A DNA stretch of 37,435 nucleotides, from NCBI GenBank assembly GCA_029262055.1, contig JAJDAD010000076.1:1-37435 (forward strand). Reading direction: 5' to 3'. Below, one piece after another: positions 9,354-21,446 of the stretch; positions within the stretch are counted from its first letter, which is position 1; each line of letters starts with the position of its first letter. The stretch is from Candidatus Zhuqueibacterota bacterium (GTDB taxonomy: Bacteria > Zhuqueibacterota > Zhuqueibacteria > Oceanimicrobiales > Oceanimicrobiaceae). The notes under the pieces were generated by a model, which was given only the letters and a program-made list of their open reading frames with translations, did not search any database and had not been told where the DNA came from. A program made the position numbers and the translations under genes.

Positions 9354-12300
9354 CTATTTTATCAAAACAACCGATTTCATTTCGTCCGTTCGGTCCGCCG
9401 GATCTTCCAGGACTGCCCTGACCAAGTAACGACCGTTTCTGGCGAGAGCCCCGCTGTCGGTCCGGCCATCCCAATTGATCACGGATCTGCCTCTCGGGAA
9501 CGGTGTGTGATCGTGCAACAGCCGCACCAGGTTGCCTTCCATATTATAGATTTTCAAAGTCAGAAGCGGGTTAGGCGCAGCACTCGAGGACAGGTCGAAT
9601 TCGATCCGTAACCCCGGCAAGCCATCGACCTCGACGAATGGCGAGAACGGATTGGGCGTTACCACCAGGTTGTCAATGCCCAGTGGCTTTGCCAGAGCCA
9701 ATGCGACATATTCACCAGTGGCCTCAATGTTCGCTGCAACCAAGCCGGATGCATCGCTGCTGCCCAGGAGAAACCACTCGCTGTTGACCTGGTCCCAGCG
9801 TGCGATAAAACGCCGCTGCCCTTCCGTGTTGACCGGGGGCGGCAGCATGAGGCGGACGTTGTTCTCAAACAATAGCTCCGCTGGCTTGATGACAAAGGAT
9901 GAGTCTGTGGTAAAAAGTTCGGCACGCCCTTTTTTCGCCGGTGCCAAGGGGATCTGTGAAACCAGGAGATCCGCCCGGGAAAGAACTGAGTTTTTGGAGA
10001 GCTGTAAACGCAGCCCGCGATCGTCAAACAGCACGGTTTCAGTGACCGAGTCGACTGACGCGAAAACCTCTACCGGCAACAGGCCCAGGGCCGTGTTGCG
10101 CCCATCGCTTACCATGATGGTCAAATCTCCAAAGAAACCCGGCTGCAAACTGAGACAGCCGGCGGAGTCGATGCCGGCGGCGCCGCCGGAAACATCCAGC
10201 GACCACTCGGGCGCCCCGATGTCGATGGGCCGGTTGCTGGCATCCAGCGCCGACGCCAGGTAGCAGTGAGTCTCAGCGTTCGATATTTTTGGGCGGTCAT
10301 TCTGGTCTGCCCGGCTGATGAGAATGACAGCAACCCTCTGTGGCTCCAACCTGAAATCAGCCCCGGTTACCGTGTCGGTTTCGGTTACTTCCACTTGTGG
10401 GAAGACAGCTTCGGTCTTATGGTAGGTAAGCGCCGCGTCTGTTTTGTAGAAATCGGCTACGAGCCTGAGCAAGTAGTCGCCGTTGCTATCACTTGTCGTC
10501 CGGGCGGTCCGTCCCTCGCCACCGAGCGGCAGCGCGGAAACAGTGACGCCGCCCAGTCGCTGCCCGCTATCGCTGTTGCTCACCGTTCCTTTGATAAAAC
10601 CGTATTTGCGCAGCACTGCGATGGCGATGGTGCTGTCGCCTGGCGATACCCCTGCCAGCGTGGCCGGAAAATATCCGATGCGTTCAACTTTCAAAGTGTA
10701 GCGCTGTGACGGTACCAGGTTGAGCAGGGTGAAAGTCCCGGCACTGTCGGAGAAAGCGATGCTACGGCTACCCCGGCCATTTGAGGCCTCGACGCGGGCT
10801 GCGTTGATGGGTTCGTCCGTGTCGATATCGCGCACGGTCCCTGTTGCGCTGCCGGTCCTGCTGACCAGCTCGAAGTCGACGCCTGCGACGGCCGGAAGCA
10901 CGCCTCTCACCGGCGCGGGGGTGAAGAATTCTTGTTTGAAAGCAAATACGGTGTAAGCCTCTCCGGGGAGGACCGGCAGGCGTGTCAGAGAATAATCACC
11001 GAGACTGTTTGTGGTGGTGGAGAAGAACACGTCCGAATTGCCACTGAGTTGTGCCGAGACAGTGGCATCGGCAATGGGCGTGCTGTCCACGGATGAATGC
11101 ACATTCCCGCTGATGAAACCGTCGGCCGGATACATTACGACATCAACGCTGGCGTCCTGCGATTCACCTAACAAGAGAGATCGTGTTGGTGCGTACAGCC
11201 CCTCTCTTGTCAGGGTAAGCGTAGACACACCCGCGATGATGCCGCGCAGCGTAAAGGTTCCGCCGCCATCGCTGACTGTCTCGATAGTCTGATCGTTGTT
11301 TTCCAGCGTGATGCCGGCAGCGGCAACCGGAGTGTCGCTTGTGTCCCGCACCGCGCCTGTGAGGGAGGCAAAACTTTCCTGCAGGATAAAGTTGATATTG
11401 TCATGTAAATCGCCTTCGTTTACCACCAGAGTGGTATCACTGCTTTTGAAGCCCGGCCTGGACGCCTCTACGCGAAAGATGCCGCTGTTTAAACAAAGCT
11501 CATAGCGCCCGCCTGAGTCGGACACAGCCGAGAAAGTGGTATCGCCGATGGCCTGGATTTGCGCCGACGGAATTGGTCGTCCTGCAGGATCGGTGATCAC
11601 GCCGGTGATTTGACTTTGTAGTGGCTGCAGAATAGTGTTAAGCTGTTGCGCAGCGCCGGCAATCAACTCGAAGGTGGTTGTGGCTGAGAAATGACACGCC
11701 TTGCTGAAATTCAGTGTGTAGTTTCCCGGGGCGATTTCCAGGGAAAACTCGCCGGCAGCGTCCGTTGTGGTTGTGATGCCGAGTTCGGGAATGGTCACCA
11801 GCACGTCGCTGATGGGTGCGAGACCATCGGTGACTCTTCCCTGCACGATGCCCGAGAGTGCGCTCAGGAAGAAGTCGTTCCCGCGCATGGTCTGCCCCGA
11901 AATGGTGGTAACCGTTTTAGCGCCACCTGACTTAAAGCCTGCGAGAATTGCGTCTATTTGGAAGGGGCTCCCCGGCGGCAGGCCGATGATGTAGTTGCCA
12001 TCCCCATCCGCTTGCGCGTTCATGCTCGAGTCATGCAGAGCCACGACCCGGGCCCCGACTGCCGGTCCGGCAGTTTCGACGTTGACAACTTTGCCCGAGA
12101 CAAATCCTGCCTCTGTCAGCGTGAAGTCTTTGCGCAGCGATTGTCTCGGGGTCACCGTTTGGTCCACCCGGATGTTCAAAAAAGATGCATGCCGGACTTC
12201 CAGTTCATATTGTCCCTGCAGCAGCCCCAGGGAGTACTTGCCGTGCACGTCAGTGGTTGCGACCTGTTCGAGGACGCCGGTGTTTTTGCGGTACGCCCGT

Positions 12301-14282
12301 ACTTCGGCCTCCTGCACGCCGAGACGGTCAAACTTCACCGTGCCATAGATCAGACTGCCGGAAAACAGATTGAACGGGGCAGCGATTTGTTGGTCTTCGG
12401 TCAGGCTGAATTCGTACTGTGGTGGTGCGGCGGAGTAGACGTCGGGTTCGACGGTAAGCTGCCAATCCCCCGGTCCGGCCGCGATTCTGTACCCGCCCTG
12501 GACAGTCGTGCTCGTGGTGTAGACTTGCTCATCTTGTCGTAGATTGACGCGAATACCTTGCAGCGGGCTGCCATTGTCAGCGAGGACGATTTGTCCGGAA
12601 ATGATGTTGGTCGCAGGGCGTAATTGAATTCTGTCCAGAATGGCAGCGTCCCCTTCGCTCAGTGAGATCTGCAAGGCTGCGGATTGAACAAACCCTGTTT
12701 TGCGGGCTGTGATGGTCCATAAGTCCGGACGCAAAGAAACTGAATACGTGCCTGTTTCGTCAGTGGTCGCTTCTTCAGTGGACTCCTGGGATCTCAGTTG
12801 AACGATGGCGCCGGACAGGCTTTGTCCCGCCGCATCGACCACCTGTCCGGAGACAGTGGTTGTCCCTCGTGTAATTTCAAACGAAATGCGGGTGGTGCGG
12901 TTGTCCGAGACTGAAAACACTGCCTCAGGCGTCGTCCTGAATCCAGGCCGTGAGGCCCTGAAGCTGTACGCTCCGTCTGGCAGTCCCAGACGTGCGAAGC
13001 CAAGGGTGTCGGTAACCACCGGCAGCAGTATTTTGCCGTCGCTTGCATTTTTGATCTCAATGGCGACGCGCGACATCCGGCCTTCCGGCGACGTGGCATT
13101 AAACGCTACCCAGCCTGCGGGGCCGGCATAGTCGAACCGGCGCGTGGCGCTGGCAGAAAGGGCGGAGTTGTTTTCCGCGACCACGCGCCATTTGTAGCCG
13201 GTCCTGACCAACAAGTCACCTGGGTCTAGCCAAAACTCAGTGCTGGTAGTTGCCTGACTTAGAAAAATGTATTCGATCTCGCTATCCTGGAACTCCGCGG
13301 ATTCGAACAGAAAAAAGCGGTAAGCCGTTGCCCCCGGAACCTCGGACCATTGGAAATGGAGCTGTCCGTCTGTCACCGTGGCCCCGTCCGCGGGAGTTAC
13401 CAGCGTTGGAGTTTGCGCCAGTGTCGTCCGGTTTACCTGAAAAAATGATGGCGCAACCGGGGCGACGCCGGTCGTGATAAAATCCGGGTTGGGGCCATAA
13501 CTGTTAAGGACCACCCAGTTGTACTCAATTCCTGGCAGCAGCGGCGGGACATTGTTATTGCTGAAGCTGCCGCTCGGATCAGGCTCGCCGTAACGCAGAA
13601 AGGTTGACGGCGTAATGGCCACCCAGATCAGGTTAACGCCGGCGAGGCCGGTCACCTTGCCCGCATCATTTTTTTCCAGGGAAATGGGGCCTTCGGACAA
13701 CATCACCAGGTAATACGGGACACCGTCAACCGGGTCCCACCTGAAAAGCGGCGCTCCCTGTTGCAGACTGATGTTGCCCACCGGACTCGCTACGATTGGC
13801 GTAGAGCTGGCCTCCACGATGATGCGAAATTCCACCGACGTGGCCGTGCTGTCAGTACGCGAGACCAGGATACAGTAGTAGAGGCCGGCGGCGATGCCTT
13901 CGTTGAACGGATTCAGGGTAAGAGTGCCGGCCCCGGTCGCTTGCATGGTGTTAGGGTAGTGATTTGCCAGATCACGGTTTCCAGGGACGGTATCGTAGCG
14001 CAACTCGGCGACTGTCTGCGGCTGCCACTGAATCTGCTTTTCACTGGTGACATCCCCAGCCAGGAAAAGCTCGCGGGGTACTTTGGTGAGTACAAGCGCG
14101 GCATCCTGGTTGGCTGCACTGGCCACCAGACCCGGGTTTATGCCGGTGCCGCCGATCTTCACTTTTGGCGTAATTGCGGATTGCCCGAAAATCAGGCACG
14201 GGCAGAGCAGGAAACAGGCTGACGCCAGTGCGCCGAAAAAGCGGGCCTTACTGGAAAGCAGGTTGTGGTACTTGAATGACAT
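9354..14282 (-). CDS. Giant secreted protein with about eleven carboxypeptidase-regulatory-like repeats and FlgD-like C-terminus
   Basis: A 1642-residue exported surface protein. It has a signal peptide (residues 1-34, ending FGQ). Residues 35-385 are beta-rich and include a fibronectin-type module (TPTLVTPADGATVTDG, then FQWSEVPGATAYRFFL). Residues 386-1300 hold about eleven tandem carboxypeptidase-regulatory-like/Cna-B-type beta-sandwich repeats with the recurring pattern G-x-V-x-D...P-x-x-x-A-x-V...D-x-x-G-x-Y. Two of these end in nearly identical SRPGF segments. Residues 1300-1530 form a non-repetitive beta-rich region, and residues 1545-1642 an FlgD-Ig-like C-terminal domain (TLKIYNMEGNLVRLL, INWDGRTDSGALARNGRY). 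It probably forms an extended rod or adhesin exported by a type IX-like route. It sits between two outer-membrane protein genes. The start is ATG without an obvious Shine-Dalgarno. Confidence 0.88.
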   Translation of the reverse strand: MSFKYHNLLSSKARFFGALASACFLLCPCLIFGQSAITPKVKIGGTGINPGLVASAANQDAALVLTKVPRELFLAGDVTSEKQIQWQPQTVAELRYDTVPGNRDLANHYPNTMQATGAGTLTLNPFNEGIAAGLYYCILVSRTDSTATSVEFRIIVEASSTPIVASPVGNISLQQGAPLFRWDPVDGVPYYLVMLSEGPISLEKNDAGKVTGLAGVNLIWVAITPSTFLRYGEPDPSGSFSNNNVPPLLPGIEYNWVVLNSYGPNPDFITTGVAPVAPSFFQVNRTTLAQTPTLVTPADGATVTDGQLHFQWSEVPGATAYRFFLFESAEFQDSEIEYIFLSQATTSTEFWLDPGDLLVRTGYKWRVVAENNSALSASATRRFDYAGPAGWVAFNATSPEGRMSRVAIEIKNASDGKILLPVVTDTLGFARLGLPDGAYSFRASRPGFRTTPEAVFSVSDNRTTRISFEITRGTTTVSGQVVDAAGQSLSGAIVQLRSQESTEEATTDETGTYSVSLRPDLWTITARKTGFVQSAALQISLSEGDAAILDRIQLRPATNIISGQIVLADNGSPLQGIRVNLRQDEQVYTTSTTVQGGYRIAAGPGDWQLTVEPDVYSAAPPQYEFSLTEDQQIAAPFNLFSGSLIYGTVKFDRLGVQEAEVRAYRKNTGVLEQVATTDVHGKYSLGLLQGQYELEVRHASFLNIRVDQTVTPRQSLRKDFTLTEAGFVSGKVVNVETAGPAVGARVVALHDSSMNAQADGDGNYIIGLPPGSPFQIDAILAGFKSGGAKTVTTISGQTMRGNDFFLSALSGIVQGRVTDGLAPISDVLVTIPELGITTTTDAAGEFSLEIAPGNYTLNFSKACHFSATTTFELIAGAAQQLNTILQPLQSQITGVITDPAGRPIPSAQIQAIGDTTFSAVSDSGGRYELCLNSGIFRVEASRPGFKSSDTTLVVNEGDLHDNINFILQESFASLTGAVRDTSDTPVAAAGITLENNDQTIETVSDGGGTFTLRGIIAGVSTLTLTREGLYAPTRSLLLGESQDASVDVVMYPADGFISGNVHSSVDSTPIADATVSAQLSGNSDVFFSTTTNSLGDYSLTRLPVLPGEAYTVFAFKQEFFTPAPVRGVLPAVAGVDFELVSRTGSATGTVRDIDTDEPINAARVEASNGRGSRSIAFSDSAGTFTLLNLVPSQRYTLKVERIGYFPATLAGVSPGDSTIAIAVLRKYGFIKGTVSNSDSGQRLGGVTVSALPLGGEGRTARTTSDSNGDYLLRLVADFYKTDAALTYHKTEAVFPQVEVTETDTVTGADFRLEPQRVAVILISRADQNDRPKISNAETHCYLASALDASNRPIDIGAPEWSLDVSGGAAGIDSAGCLSLQPGFFGDLTIMVSDGRNTALGLLPVEVFASVDSVTETVLFDDRGLRLQLSKNSVLSRADLLVSQIPLAPAKKGRAELFTTDSSFVIKPAELLFENNVRLMLPPPVNTEGQRRFIARWDQVNSEWFLLGSSDASGLVAANIEATGEYVALALAKPLGIDNLVVTPNPFSPFVEVDGLPGLRIEFDLSSSAAPNPLLTLKIYNMEGNLVRLLHDHTPFPRGRSVINWDGRTDSGALARNGRYLVRAVLEDPADRTDEMKSVVLIK

Positions 14283-16120: not shown

Positions 16121-19100
16121 TCAAATCTTCTTCTGTCTATTACGAAAATAATGAAGTGTGGCGACCACAAGGCTTAAACATAACAGAGAGCCGCAAATGA
16201 GCAGTAGATGTCTGTCTCGGGGTTCTCCCGGATCTCCGTACAGCACGAACGACGCCCAAAAGAACGGATGTTGAAAATGGTATCGGCCCGGAGTTGCTTC
16301 CTGGTTTTGCAGTACTTCCCTTTTTGCCAGGGCGAGGGCCTCCGCTTTTGACGCGCCCCGCTGGAAAAGATGTTTGTAAAACAATGGCATAAGATAGGCA
16401 GCAGATCGATCGTCAACCTTCCACTGGGTCATTAAAACCGAGCGTGCCCCTGAGGCAAGAAAGTGTCTCGGTAAGGCAAGGATGCCCTCCCCCTTAACCC
16501 GCCTGCCCAAAGCTGTTTCACAGGCACTAAGTACGATTAGGTCCATGGACAACCGGGTATCGAGGATTTCGTAGCCCATCAGAATGCCATCGCTGGAGTC
16601 TTGGTCCGCCGCCAACAGGATTCCGGAAAAGAGATCGAAAAGGGTATCTGAGAAGGCGTGGGTAGCGAAGTGCACAATATCATAGCTTGCTCCATGCAAG
16701 AGGTGCCTTTCATGGGCGAGAGCGCGCTCTTTCAGAGTCGTTTCCGGGTGGTAGTTCAGGATGCCCTTCATTTCTTTTTGAGAGAAGGGCAGTGGCGTAA
16801 ATGTCAGTCCATTTGGCAACTTTGCATAGGAGCTTTCTTCTGTAAATGGATTTCCAAGAATGAGCATTCTGGCATTACTAAATGAATGCTGTTGTATGTC
16901 CAAATGCGCCAGGCCCGGGCTGTACACCAGAGTGAAATGGTTTTGGACAAAGCTCCCGGCATAGTCAGGGGGATCAGTTGGTGCATAACTGTCTTTTTCA
17001 GGCGACCGGGTCAGGAGAAGCTCAAACGGTAAATTGCTTAGAAGCAGGTCCGGGACGATGATTAGGCGTTCGGGCAGGTCCATTACCGTAGCAATCGGTG
17101 CCAGGAGCTGGTCGTAGATCTGGTAAGCCAGTTTCGCTCGGAAGGGAATATGATCAAAGTTCTGAGGGCTGGCGTTGTACAAGGGGGCAACCAGTTTTTT
17201 GACTGCTAAAGCCAGATCTCGGGATCGCACATTCAGTCTCAGTATCCTGAAGTTCTGCCCGGTAGCCACAAGGGCGAAGGAGTGTTGGTCTTCGATGTGG
17301 TACAGTACGAGAGCGTAACCGGTCGGGGCAAGGCGTCCCATAAGAGCTTGTACGGAAAGAGGACGGACCGTGTGTGCCGGCCGGCGTGCCAGCCTCAGTC
17401 GGTGGGAAATCAATTCATACTTTGCGGCATTGTATAGCGGAAGCAAATCTTCGGCGTGAGTGGGATCCTGCCGACTGAGCCGTTGAATCCGGGTGAGTTT
17501 GTCAGAGGCAGCCCGGTACATTCGGTACTCCCTAAGGTCTTGCGATTGCGCGGAGCTGGATGATTTTTCGATGGCAATCTCGTGCAGCACTCGTGCCTGA
17601 CTAAGGGTTTCATAATAAAGGACACTGTCCGCAAACACCCGTTCGTGGCCAGACTCGAATAATTGAAAGAAACAGGCTGCGAGTTTGCGATAAACGTCGT
17701 AGCGCGTGCTGAAGTAGCCCATTCGGAACATGTCTTCTTCAAGTCGTTGGCGCGACTTTTCTATGATGGCCGCTGCGTTTTTCAGAGACCTGATAGCAGC
17801 AGCCAGGTCACCGGTGCGCAGGTGCATCTCCGCCAGACCGGAGTAGGTTTCCGACAGAATCTCGAAGTTGCTGTCTGCCGCAGCTAGACGCTGGGCTGTT
17901 TTTAATTGCTCTGCACTCTCTTGAAGATTTCCTTGGCGCAGTGCTACTTCGCCGATCCTCAGCCTGTAGAGCGCCTCATATCTTTCGGAATCTGCTTTTT
18001 GGGCGAGCCTGAGCGCTTGCACATATACTTGCTGCGCGCTGTCAAAATGTGTCTCCTGAAAATACGTTTGTGCGATCATGCCCAGGTTGTACGCACGTTC
18101 CAGAAGATCGCCGTATCGACTACCGAAGTTGATATATTCCCGGTATAGTTTGCGAGCTTGCAGATTTTTCCCTTCGAGGAGCAGGACGTCGGCGATTCTG
18201 ACCTTGGCACGAAATTGTTCATCCGTCAGATTCCTGGAGATGGCAAGCTCGAGGGCCTCGGTATAGACCTTTTTTGCCAATTGGTTTTGCCGCAGGAACA
18301 GATAAAGGTCACCTTTGTCTTGTTTAACCAAAATGAGCCTTCTTAAACTGTTCGCCCTGGCGGCATGCTCTTCACTGAGGTCGTAGGCCTTGAGTGCTTC
18401 GCTGTATTTTTCTTGAAAGTAGAGGGCATGAGCATAACCGGAATACCACTTGGCTGAGTCTCCGAACGAGTGGAGCGCAGATGCTATTTCCGCGGCTCGT
18501 TTGTACTGTACTTCAGCCTGCTGGAAGTCAGCCTGCTGTCGACTGAGGCTGCCGCGGTGGGCGGCCACCAAATGCATAATCCTCAACGAGTGGGTTTCCG
18601 CTGCCAGGGTTGCCGCCTGGTCCGAAAGTCTTTTCGAGTCAGGATAGTTTCTCAAGAACTTTTGCGCAACACCGCGTAGCAACAAAAAGCGTGCTTGTAG
18701 CGCTCTGTCGCCGCTCGATTCGGCACTGGTGAGAGCAACCTGCCAAACGGAATCTGCCCTGTCGGGTTGTAGAAGATGCCGAAAGCAATTTCCCAGCACG
18801 TCCAGGATTGCCAGGTGCTCATAGGCCGGCTTTGCCAGGGGCGAAAGTATCCGCATTGCTTGTCGATAGTCAAGGTCCTCGAACAAGTAGAAAGCCTGAA
18901 TAATTTGTTTGCTTGTGTGGCTGGACGAATCGATGTATGGGGCAATACTATCAAACTTTCGTCCGCTTTGGTGACAGAAGTTGACGAAGTCCTTCAAGAG
19001 AAAGGTATTGTGGAGGGTATCGGAGTCGATCGCACGAAGAAAAGCATTGAACGCTTCCGTTTCATGCTCCAAATAGTCCAAGGTCTTGGCCAGCGCCCAA

Positions 19101-19429
19101 TAAGCGTTGCTGTGTACTGTGGAACTGCTGAGCCGTCTAAAAAAGGAGCGGCCCCGTTGCACCGAGCCGGCACTAACATAGAGGTCAAACAGCCTGTGAT
19201 AGGCCGGCTCGAATTGCGGGTGTGTCTCGACATAGTCTTCAAGGGCACGGATATGGTCGCTGCTACTGTCGGATAGCAACTCTTTGAGATACTGGTAGAA
19301 GCCACTGAGTTCGGATGTAGCACCGATTGCCTGGCCAAGCCCACTGCCTGCAGTGAACAAACAGCAGCTCAGGTAGATGATGACCAGGATTCTCTTCCGG
19401 CCACGCTCTCTTTCAGTCGTCTCCGCCAA
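16121..19429 (-). CDS. TPR-repeat CHAT-domain protease, predicted exported and membrane-anchored
   Basis: A 1102-residue protein. Residues 13-37 form a hydrophobic signal or anchor (ILVIIYLSCCLFTAGSG). Residues 45-610 are many tandem TPR units (for example ALKAYDLSEEHAARANSLRR and YEALYRLRIGEVALRQGN). Residues 740-1065 form a CHAT (caspase HetF-associated with TPRs) domain with the catalytic dyad intact: HFATHA (His924) and LSACETALG (Cys970), followed by GARSVLMTQWKVDD and a conserved HPFFWASFVLYGDPG. A C-terminal helix near 1073-1093 is followed by RNRQKK. CHAT domains are clan CD cysteine peptidases. Here a signal at one end and a helix with basic tail at the other place the protease in the periplasm, which is unusual. 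It starts at a TTG 13 nt after the lipoprotein stop; no ATG fits, so translational coupling is likely. Last gene of the sigma operon. Confidence 0.92.
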   Translation of the reverse strand: MAETTERERGRKRILVIIYLSCCLFTAGSGLGQAIGATSELSGFYQYLKELLSDSSSDHIRALEDYVETHPQFEPAYHRLFDLYVSAGSVQRGRSFFRRLSSSTVHSNAYWALAKTLDYLEHETEAFNAFLRAIDSDTLHNTFLLKDFVNFCHQSGRKFDSIAPYIDSSSHTSKQIIQAFYLFEDLDYRQAMRILSPLAKPAYEHLAILDVLGNCFRHLLQPDRADSVWQVALTSAESSGDRALQARFLLLRGVAQKFLRNYPDSKRLSDQAATLAAETHSLRIMHLVAAHRGSLSRQQADFQQAEVQYKRAAEIASALHSFGDSAKWYSGYAHALYFQEKYSEALKAYDLSEEHAARANSLRRLILVKQDKGDLYLFLRQNQLAKKVYTEALELAISRNLTDEQFRAKVRIADVLLLEGKNLQARKLYREYINFGSRYGDLLERAYNLGMIAQTYFQETHFDSAQQVYVQALRLAQKADSERYEALYRLRIGEVALRQGNLQESAEQLKTAQRLAAADSNFEILSETYSGLAEMHLRTGDLAAAIRSLKNAAAIIEKSRQRLEEDMFRMGYFSTRYDVYRKLAACFFQLFESGHERVFADSVLYYETLSQARVLHEIAIEKSSSSAQSQDLREYRMYRAASDKLTRIQRLSRQDPTHAEDLLPLYNAAKYELISHRLRLARRPAHTVRPLSVQALMGRLAPTGYALVLYHIEDQHSFALVATGQNFRILRLNVRSRDLALAVKKLVAPLYNASPQNFDHIPFRAKLAYQIYDQLLAPIATVMDLPERLIIVPDLLLSNLPFELLLTRSPEKDSYAPTDPPDYAGSFVQNHFTLVYSPGLAHLDIQQHSFSNARMLILGNPFTEESSYAKLPNGLTFTPLPFSQKEMKGILNYHPETTLKERALAHERHLLHGASYDIVHFATHAFSDTLFDLFSGILLAADQDSSDGILMGYEILDTRLSMDLIVLSACETALGRRVKGEGILALPRHFLASGARSVLMTQWKVDDRSAAYLMPLFYKHLFQRGASKAEALALAKREVLQNQEATPGRYHFQHPFFWASFVLYGDPGEPRDRHLLLICGSLLCLSLVVATLHYFRNRQKKI

Positions 19430-19442
19430 CAGAGTTTCGGAG

Positions 19443-19859
19443 CTATTTCTGCGTGAACGATTCTTTTGGTACGTAGGTAAGTTTGACCCGTGTTTTGTGG
19501 TTCGAGTCAGTCATCAGCTTCGCCTGGAATGAGTACTCTGTTTTCTCTTCGACACAGGGAGGCTGCCCCTCTCCTCCACAAGGCACTTCAAAACAGATCT
19601 GAACCATGCTGGTATCGGCACCACTCGGCGGCCTGGCCTCTTCTTCGCCGCCTTGCTCTTCGGATGCATAGTCGGTGGAGACACTCGATGTGTCCGCCCC
19701 GCTCGGTGGCCTGGCGAAAAGTGTTCCATCCAGCGCCTGCCAGGCGTCATTTCCGGCAGTGTCGTCTTCAACCTGGTTGCCGACGCATGCCAGCGCAAAC
19801 CCAAGAATGAGGCCCAGCGCGATTACGGTGAGCCATTGTCCGTGAATTTTCCTGCCCAT
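19443..19859 (-). CDS. Small lipoprotein with duplicated ARPPSGADTS motif
   Basis: A 138-residue lipoprotein. I choose the ATG at 19859 because GGGAGG lies 8 nt upstream and it leads directly into a signal sequence (LTVIALGLILGFALAC, lipid-modified Cys25); the longer frame to 19904 would overlap the previous gene. The mature part is acidic and low-complexity, with the decapeptide ARPPSGADTS present twice (residues 49-58 and 75-84) and a spacer that includes EEQGGEEE. Three further cysteines (89, 94, 102) and a short beta-like tail (TEYSFQAKLM, TRVKLTYVP) follow. No known family is recognised. It is encoded between the anti-sigma-like protein and the CHAT protease, with gaps of 32 and 13 nt. 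A role as sensor partner or substrate of the protease is inference. Confidence 0.78.
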   Translation of the reverse strand: MGRKIHGQWLTVIALGLILGFALACVGNQVEDDTAGNDAWQALDGTLFARPPSGADTSSVSTDYASEEQGGEEEARPPSGADTSMVQICFEVPCGGEGQPPCVEEKTEYSFQAKLMTDSNHKTRVKLTYVPKESFTQK

Positions 19860-19891
19860 GATCAACCTCCCTCTTATGTGATTATGTGAAT

Positions 19892-20815
19892 TTAATCCGA
19901 CCATCTGCGGATCAGTTTCTGACTTTTTTGATAATAGGTCGTGCCTGGGGCAATCTCCCGAAGCAGGGACTTAGCCCTCTCTTTTTGATCAGAAAAACCG
20001 TATGCCAATGCCCTGAAAAAACGAATCCGGTTGAAATACTCGTGTTCATCACTATTGGTTTTTGACTGTGCCTGCTCTAGCAATCGGCTGGCCTCTTGCA
20101 CAAAATGGGATCTCTGCGGCCCGCCGATAAGCTGCATCTTACTCCTGGCAAGTGCCAGATTCGTCAGTCCGTGATAGAAGAAATAATCCCGAAACATGCG
20201 CCGTTGCGATTCGTCGGAAAATCGCTGTTGCAACACCTCGGCGTCTGTTGCAAGCCGCTGCATCGCTTCGAGGCCGCGGAGGTAATCCGTACTTTCGTAG
20301 TCAGAAATCGCGAGCTCAAAGCGCGACTTAAAAGTCCGGAGTTCTTCCTCCGAATCTGAATCTACTTCAGCGCCACGCAACGCCCTCGGCTCATATTCGA
20401 ATGGGACGTTGTCACTATATTCAAACTGTTCCCAGAATCTTGCATCGTCGTAGATGAGGTAGCCTTTGTATGACGCAAAGATCACCGTCAGAATACTTGC
20501 CACGGCAAGACCGTAGTTCCAGGCAGGGCGGGGTAAGCTCCACCAGGGTCGGGAGGGCTCGTGCCGTGCTGTCTTAGTGGTTTGCATTTCCCTTTTTTTT
20601 GCAAAATACTCAGCTTCCAGTTCTGCACTGTTTTTGGCCAGCGATTTCAATATTTTGTCGCGCACCTGCAGTTCTTCGAACAAAGCTTTGTCGTCATAAC
20701 AGCGGTCTTCGAACATGAGACGCTCCTCAGCAGAAAGCTGTTCAAGCAGGTATCGATCGAGCAGGTCATCCCACTTCGGTTCGAAACTCGTGAAATTTTT
20801 ATAATCTGAAGCCAT
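19892..20815 (-). CDS. Single-pass membrane anti-sigma-like protein with periplasmic helical domain
   Basis: A 307-residue membrane protein. The N-terminal cytosolic part (residues 15-60) carries LLDRYLLEQLSAEERLMFEDRC, the pattern of anti-sigma N-terminal domains but without the zinc His-Cys-Cys set. A basic stretch is followed by one transmembrane helix at about 100-122. Residues 140-307 are predicted periplasmic and alpha-helical, TPR-like (YFNRIRFFRALAYGFSDQKERAKSLLREI), so they could sense an envelope signal or bind the TPR protease. It lies 43 nt downstream of the sigma factor gene, the usual position for a cognate anti-sigma factor. The assignment rests on position plus the N-terminal motif; direct sigma binding is inference. 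Confidence 0.75.
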   Translation of the reverse strand: MASDYKNFTSFEPKWDDLLDRYLLEQLSAEERLMFEDRCYDDKALFEELQVRDKILKSLAKNSAELEAEYFAKKREMQTTKTARHEPSRPWWSLPRPAWNYGLAVASILTVIFASYKGYLIYDDARFWEQFEYSDNVPFEYEPRALRGAEVDSDSEEELRTFKSRFELAISDYESTDYLRGLEAMQRLATDAEVLQQRFSDESQRRMFRDYFFYHGLTNLALARSKMQLIGGPQRSHFVQEASRLLEQAQSKTNSDEHEYFNRIRFFRALAYGFSDQKERAKSLLREIAPGTTYYQKSQKLIRRWSD

Positions 20816-20858
20816 GGCGCTTATCCACTTATTCTCCGGTACCGGGAAAAAATTGCAT

Positions 20859-21446
20859 TTATAATAATTTCTTCATCCTTTTCTTGATTTTGGCCACTGC
20901 TTTGTACTTGAGGTCGTAGACTGTCTGTGGCTCCAAGTTAAGGTCCGCCGCAATCTCAGCCATCGATAGACCCTTGCTCAGCCGCAGGTAGAGGATCAGT
21001 CTCTCGTTCGGTTTCAGGCTGGCCAGGGCCCTCTCGTAAAGCTCCTTCTCCTCCTGCCTGATCAACTGTTCTTCCGGACCCGGTGTGGTGTCGGGTTGCG
21101 TCGCAATTTCATCTATCTGCTCATTTCTGCTTCCCGCTTCCGGATGTGCTATTCGGGCACTGTGTCTGATCTTTTGAGTCAGGTAATCATTCGTCTTGTT
21201 TCTCTGAATCGCGGCAATGAAGGTAGAGAGTGCAGCTCTGTTTGGATCGTACCTGCCATTTCGCAAACTTTGGATAACAGCGATCATGATATTCTGAACC
21301 AGGTCATCCAGACCCTGGTCGTTGAATCCAATCGCCCGCCCGGCAAAGTACCGAATCCGTTCCGAGTACTCGGAAATGAGTTCCGCTTCAGACTGCGAGT
21401 TGCCGTCCTGAATACTCTCAGACCACTGTTTGTCCTGTAAATTCAT
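20859..21446 (-). CDS. ECF-type sigma-70 family RNA polymerase sigma factor
   Basis: A 195-residue sigma factor with region 2 (about residues 20-95: YSERIRYFAGRAIGFNDQ, DDLVQNIMIAVIQSLRNGRYD, ALSTFIAAIQRNKTNDYL) and region 4 (about 135-190: LASLKPNERLILYLRLSKG, MAEIAADLNLEPQTVYDLK helix-turn-helix). The absence of region 3 makes it ECF-like. It should direct RNA polymerase to its own promoter set. It is the first gene of a minus-strand operon with the anti-sigma-like protein, the lipoprotein and the CHAT protease, so autoregulation is likely. The ATG at 21446 has no clear Shine-Dalgarno. The linker between regions 2 and 4 (residues 95-132) is acidic and rather long. Confidence 0.92.
   Translation of the reverse strand: MNLQDKQWSESIQDGNSQSEAELISEYSERIRYFAGRAIGFNDQGLDDLVQNIMIAVIQSLRNGRYDPNRAALSTFIAAIQRNKTNDYLTQKIRHSARIAHPEAGSRNEQIDEIATQPDTTPGPEEQLIRQEEKELYERALASLKPNERLILYLRLSKGLSMAEIAADLNLEPQTVYDLKYKAVAKIKKRMKKLL

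Follow-up and report, generated by a model that had tools for sequence, protein, structure and literature searches.

A recurrent four-gene cassette of ECF sigma factor, putative membrane anti-sigma factor, lipoprotein and TPR-CHAT protease as a candidate proteolytic signalling system

Two described systems bring a CHAT domain together with the inhibition of a sigma factor. In Myxococcus xanthus the sigma factor DdvS has DdvA as its partner (PMC4374960), and an antiphage island that includes a type III-B CRISPR (clustered regularly interspaced short palindromic repeats) system is under the control of DdvS (PMC12288465). DdvA has been deposited (PDB 8rot, 8rw5) as a "transmembrane anti-sigma factor" under the molecule name "CHAT domain-containing protein". 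In the second system, the Craspase of type III-E CRISPR, the TPR-CHAT protease Csx29 cleaves Csx30, the inhibitor of CASP-sigma (PMC10028731). Furthermore, an earlier study noted EACC2/caspase neighbourhoods that contain an extracytoplasmic function (ECF) sigma factor together with a DUF1822 TPR protein (PMC8195603); their architecture differs from the one described here. We analyzed a stretch of 37,435 nucleotides from a Candidatus Zhuqueibacterota bacterium (contig JAJDAD010000076.1, hereafter the window), which carries an ECF-type sigma factor gene followed by genes for an anti-sigma factor, a small lipoprotein and a TPR-CHAT protease. The recurrence of this gene set, together with a conserved candidate cut site in the anti-sigma factor, suggests that a caspase-type protease may switch genes on upon envelope signals.

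An earlier note, made from the sequence alone, had described the four genes as a tightly packed operon and possible envelope surveillance system. Indeed, the four open reading frames lie in the claimed order on the minus strand, and the stated gaps (43, 32 and 13 nt) hold exactly given that the lipoprotein starts at the ATG at 19859. In the order of transcription the features are:

20859..21446, minus strand: ECF-type sigma factor, 195 amino acids (aa), with matches to TIGR02937, Sigma70_r2 and Sigma70_r4_2
19892..20815, minus strand: putative single-pass anti-sigma factor, 307 aa, with a zinc-less anti-sigma domain (alignment A3 of orthologues, AlphaFold model)
20372..20377, minus strand: codons of R147-G148, candidate site of cleavage within the anti-sigma factor's juxtamembrane linker (conservation, low model confidence, R[GS] enrichment)
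19443..19859, minus strand: predicted small lipoprotein of 138 aa that may regulate the protease or be its ligand (lipobox, Shine-Dalgarno sequence, same slot in many relatives)
16121..19429, minus strand: TPR-CHAT protease, 1102 aa (Pfam CHAT, AlphaFold model, Foldseek matches to separase, DdvA and Csx29)
16658..16660, minus strand: codon of the catalytic His924, invariant in alignment A2
16520..16522, minus strand: codon of the catalytic Cys970, invariant in alignment A2

A scan for terminators and promoters found sites no more numerous than in shuffled sequence and is therefore uninformative either way on co-transcription. The PADLOC models gave no useful match for any of the four proteins.

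The association of these genes is not confined to the window. In the same genome two further loci (L007 304-5180 and L008 4223-9024) encode a sigma factor, a zinc anti-sigma factor with a TPR-like periplasmic domain and a TPR-CHAT, in that order. When the window CHAT and anti-sigma factor were searched separately in 60 related genomes, matches in neighbouring genes were recovered in about 10 contigs. Across nine genomes of the class we collected CHAT genes at E < 1e-15 and judged their neighbours by hand: a sigma factor and an anti-sigma factor stood within about three genes in 18 of 37 decidable cases. Chance would place a sigma gene next to CHAT in about 6% (about 30 sigma genes per 6 Mb), which gives a nominal binomial probability of 6e-13, a value to be taken as indicative because the genes are related. 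Outside the class, a scan of GTDB contigs with the single protein gave no relatives and an alignment-based search did; a sigma factor lay at most 6 kb away in 27 of the 80 best CHAT loci, from Bacteroidota, Acidobacteriota and others. Matches at E <= 1e-20 to a profile of Bacteroidota TPR anti-sigma factors (A4), drawn from ten other genomes that were mostly Bacteroidota, lay within 8 kb of a CHAT domain in 34 of 40 cases, where 1.1 were expected. About a dozen of these matches were themselves seeds from CHAT loci, and the excess is independent of them. The tallies were made partly by hand, and many of the relatives are fragmented metagenome-assembled genomes. Both gene types are numerous, with 6 CHAT and 29 sigma matches in this genome, so that chance neighbours in a gene-dense region have to be considered. 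This explanation is contradicted by a co-occurrence far above expectation in two independent samples and we regard it as extremely improbable. The earlier note had made conserved co-occurrence in related genomes one of the points on which its reading could fail; the association is clearly present and above chance.

Variants of the gene set were also seen. At L085 6014-7012, L182 6729-7700 and L184 2024-2998 a sigma/TPR anti-sigma pair is followed by a protein of 250-275 aa that is not a CHAT protein. The respective genomes (G024, G012 and G050) have CHAT elsewhere, and the cassette may thus work in trans. A very divergent sigma-like family occurs at L065 8762-9394, L067 1242-1895, L070 9503-10183, L071 2176-2805, L075 9705-10442, L076 9004-9654 and L181 5692-6351. 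Its members have no sigma Pfam match (4 tested), and two of three tested match TIGR02937 at about 1e-4. The next gene encodes a separate protein of 130-176 aa, usually carrying the zinc motif HLNDCxxC. A membrane TPR protein is present as well, from which the zinc motif has mostly disappeared. In these loci the anti-sigma domain may have been split off into a gene of its own.

The sigma factor of the window matches TIGR02937 (E 3.4e-26), Sigma70_r2 (5.7e-07) and Sigma70_r4_2 (4.1e-08), and has sigma-70 regions 2 and 4 only, as befits the ECF type. The neighbouring anti-sigma factor by itself yields a weak NCBIfam antisigma match (8.7e-4, under the cut-off). Its orthologues possess a zinc HxxxCxxC anti-sigma domain, and 5 of the 15 sequences in alignment A3 match zf-HC2; the window protein lacks the zinc ligands and has RCYDDKALF in place of HxxxCxxC. 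The AlphaFold model (mean predicted local distance difference test score, pLDDT, of 86) has three N-terminal helices, a transmembrane helix (96-129), a flexible linker (130-154) and a TPR superhelix (155-306) that is predicted to be periplasmic. For this model Foldseek gave nothing beyond TPR and 14-3-3 matches of a generic kind, all at E of 0.001 or above. The orthologues, the model and the synteny thus bear out the earlier description of an anti-sigma-like N-terminus with a periplasmic helical domain, and assign the protein to the membrane anti-sigma factors with a class I domain, one transmembrane helix, an extracytoplasmic domain and an adjoining sigma gene. We propose that it binds and inhibits the neighbouring sigma factor.

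The protease matches Pfam CHAT at 1.7e-56, with the domain at residues 767-1066. His924 and Cys970 are unchanged across 14 aligned CHAT sequences (alignment A2); the catalytic dyad is intact, as the earlier note had stated, and with the CHAT domain and the TPRs it identifies the protein as a CHAT peptidase. In the AlphaFold model (pLDDT 83) a predicted signal peptide, encoded behind an uncertain TTG start codon, precedes the TPR superhelix and the CHAT domain, and a C-terminal transmembrane helix with the basic tail RNRQKKI follows. Among CHATs linked to a sigma factor, most in the window clade and in Bacteroidota have such a helix and basic tail. Because of the signal-like segment and the C-terminal anchor, the CHAT domain and the anti-sigma sensor appear to lie on the same, periplasmic side; the catalytic domain is predicted to be 10 or so residues from the bilayer and R147 about 18. 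Foldseek placed separases, the closest fold (E 2.9e-15), DdvA (E 1.6e-14) and Csx29 near the top, and the CHAT domain retains a W-x-V-x-D motif whose aspartate (D1007) may, by analogy of motif, correspond to one acidic S1 residue of separases. A tblastn search of phage records with the window TPR-CHAT gave no match.

Relatives of the protease show two further features. In transmembrane-anchored TPR-CHATs of the same family at L011 6216-9356, L202 4434-7772 and L206 6834-10139 both catalytic residues, His and Cys, are lost. No sigma partner accompanies any of the three, and those at L011 and L202 adjoin secD/secF-like genes. In other relatives the gene directly downstream of CHAT encodes a bacterial alpha-2-macroglobulin, a protease trap, or a secreted CLCA-like/VWA protein (L068 622-6060, L078 1380-6000; L065 1417-2946, L075 382-3732); the periplasmic protease may have these proteins as targets or partners. 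In the window, two genes downstream of CHAT (9354-14282), a secreted protein of 1642 aa is encoded that combines some 11 carboxypeptidase regulatory-like domains with a FlgD-like domain at its C-terminus.

In the linker of the anti-sigma factor, R147 is at least 90% conserved in alignment A3 and is, besides the start Met, the sole highly conserved residue outside the TPRs; residues 149-151 beside it have a pLDDT below 50. An Arg-[Gly/Ser] pair recurs in the linkers of CHAT-adjoining anti-sigma factors, whose sensors are TPR-like and in some cases Ig-like. Scored within 60 residues after the transmembrane helix, R[GS] occurred in 28 of 40 class sequences (16 in shuffled linkers), in 21 of 28 loci left out of motif discovery (shuffled 7) and in 20 of 35 sequences of a further set (shuffle mean 9). 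Control zf-HC2 anti-sigma factors chosen regardless of CHAT had it in 5 of 27 (shuffled 8). Separases cut after Arg and have acidic S1 residues (PMC4626109).

We consider it an even call whether the cassette is a proteolytic signal transduction system in which CHAT makes the site-1 cut that releases the sigma factor. At rest, the sigma factor would be tethered to the inner membrane through the anti-sigma factor. The TPR-CHAT would be exported and anchored by its C-terminal helix, so that only a few residues separate the catalytic domain from the membrane's periplasmic face, and the lipoprotein would bind or report to the TPR superhelix, either keeping the protease in check or activating it when the envelope is disturbed. 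Upon a signal, CHAT would cut the flexible linker after the conserved basic residue (R147-G148) and so remove the TPR sensor. A general intramembrane protease would then complete degradation of the anti-sigma factor (the genome has three M50 homologues), and the freed sigma factor would transcribe the operon that encodes it as well as target genes. Both precedents are tied to antiviral defence, which suggests that phage challenge may be one of the inducing signals, and envelope surveillance as the role of the cassette is a plausible guess. The mechanism predicts that cleavage at R147/G148 depends on Cys970.

Several observations weigh against this mechanism. About half of the CHAT genes in these genomes are without a sigma partner. 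Some anti-sigma copies have Lys or another residue at the candidate site, and many of the non-R[GS] sequences in the further set have Lys, or Arg followed by a different residue. The motif is also kept in 4 of 6 Bacteroidota anti-sigma factors without a nearby CHAT, which ties the residue to the anti-sigma family rather than strictly to adjacency. It was discovered among the class sequences; many of the proteins are relatives of one another, and the controls carry a different sensor domain. Csx29 cleavage needs no single essential Csx30 residue, hence TPR-CHATs do not necessarily require a fixed P1 residue. The topology was derived from hydrophobicity and charge alone.

The strongest rival holds that CHAT is only an output: a general protease would cut the TPR sensor of the anti-sigma factor, and the sigma-made CHAT would attack periplasmic or foreign proteins as an executioner or in defence. 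The sigma/anti-sigma pair that is divergent from a CHAT-ending operon in Flavobacterium and others, as for a target promoter, fits this, as do the secreted alpha-2-macroglobulins and CLCA/VWA proteins in a periplasmic protease programme and the control of antiphage genes by DdvS. It leaves unexplained why a basic linker residue is conserved in anti-sigma factors with TPR or Ig-like sensors, and why such anti-sigma factors are paired with the protease across phyla. We judge it unlikely as the whole explanation; both it and a cleavage of the anti-sigma factor by CHAT can hold at once. Less likely still, CHAT/TPR could serve the anti-sigma factor mainly as a non-proteolytic partner or as a sensor scaffold, as the CHAT region of DdvA might. 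That DdvA is anti-sigma factor and CHAT protein at once counts against proteolytic signalling and fits such a scaffold too, and the family does hold the catalytically dead copies mentioned above; these stand apart from sigma factors, however, and the aligned sigma-linked CHATs retain His and Cys. The single circuit proposed in the earlier note is thus strongly supported as far as the link between sigma factor, anti-sigma factor and CHAT is concerned: the set recurs across phyla, a common topology is predicted and the candidate site is conserved. The divergent promoters in Bacteroidota suggest the protease as output, and the R-[GS] site in the linker suggests it as trigger.

The lipoprotein is the loosest member of the set. 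It has a plausible lipobox (FALAC), two ARPPSGADTS repeats and a good Shine-Dalgarno sequence, agaGGGAGGttgatcATG, ahead of its ATG. In relatives a small secreted or anchored protein is often found directly before CHAT: lipoprotein-like proteins in class loci (L048, L066, L063) and in Bacteroidota (L115, L137, L139, L141, L169, L170), and short N-anchored peptides with Pro-rich tails (L064, L067, L069/L082, L077, L181). Their sequences are not conserved, some loci such as L007 and L008 have none, and short open reading frames are easily found; consequently this link is weaker than that between sigma factor, anti-sigma factor and CHAT.

The earlier note had called the system undescribed. The literature searched yielded no four-gene form that is split and exported and has a TPR anti-sigma factor of its own, although papers outside it on ECF classification or on DdvS and CRISPR may mention CHAT beside ECF genes; the connection between CHAT and sigma inhibition itself was already known from DdvA and from Csx29/Csx30/CASP-sigma. 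Like DdvS/DdvA, the window system consists of an ECF sigma factor and a membrane anti-sigma factor tied to a CHAT domain. DdvA, however, unites anti-sigma and CHAT in one polypeptide, whereas here they are two genes: an anti-sigma factor with its own TPR sensor and, beside a lipoprotein, a separate TPR-CHAT with its own predicted signal peptide and C-terminal anchor. Craspase (type III-E) likewise comprises a TPR-CHAT protease, a sigma factor and a sigma inhibitor, but it works with Cas7-11 on target RNA in the cytosol, and Csx30 is not described as a membrane anti-sigma factor. The window sigma factor scores 38.9 against the CAS_III-E_sigma model (cut-off 100), and the direct neighbours examined at the locus are not Cas-like, no Cas-family scan of the whole window having been made. 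With separase the window protease shares a helical superhelix and a caspase-type domain. Separase and securin are eukaryotic, unlike the window system, and the small lipoprotein as a securin analogue is speculation. It is a possible but doubtful extension that widespread periplasmic separase-like proteases are dedicated site-1 proteases of ECF anti-sigma factors, cutting after a conserved Arg under the gate of a securin-like lipoprotein, with DdvA and Craspase as offshoots. In its proposed logic the cassette resembles RseA/DegS/RseP of sigma-E and RsiW, where a membrane anti-sigma factor undergoes a periplasmic site-1 cut and then an intramembrane cut. The site-1 protease here, however, would be no PDZ serine protease but a cysteine protease of the caspase/separase type whose gene lies in the same operon.

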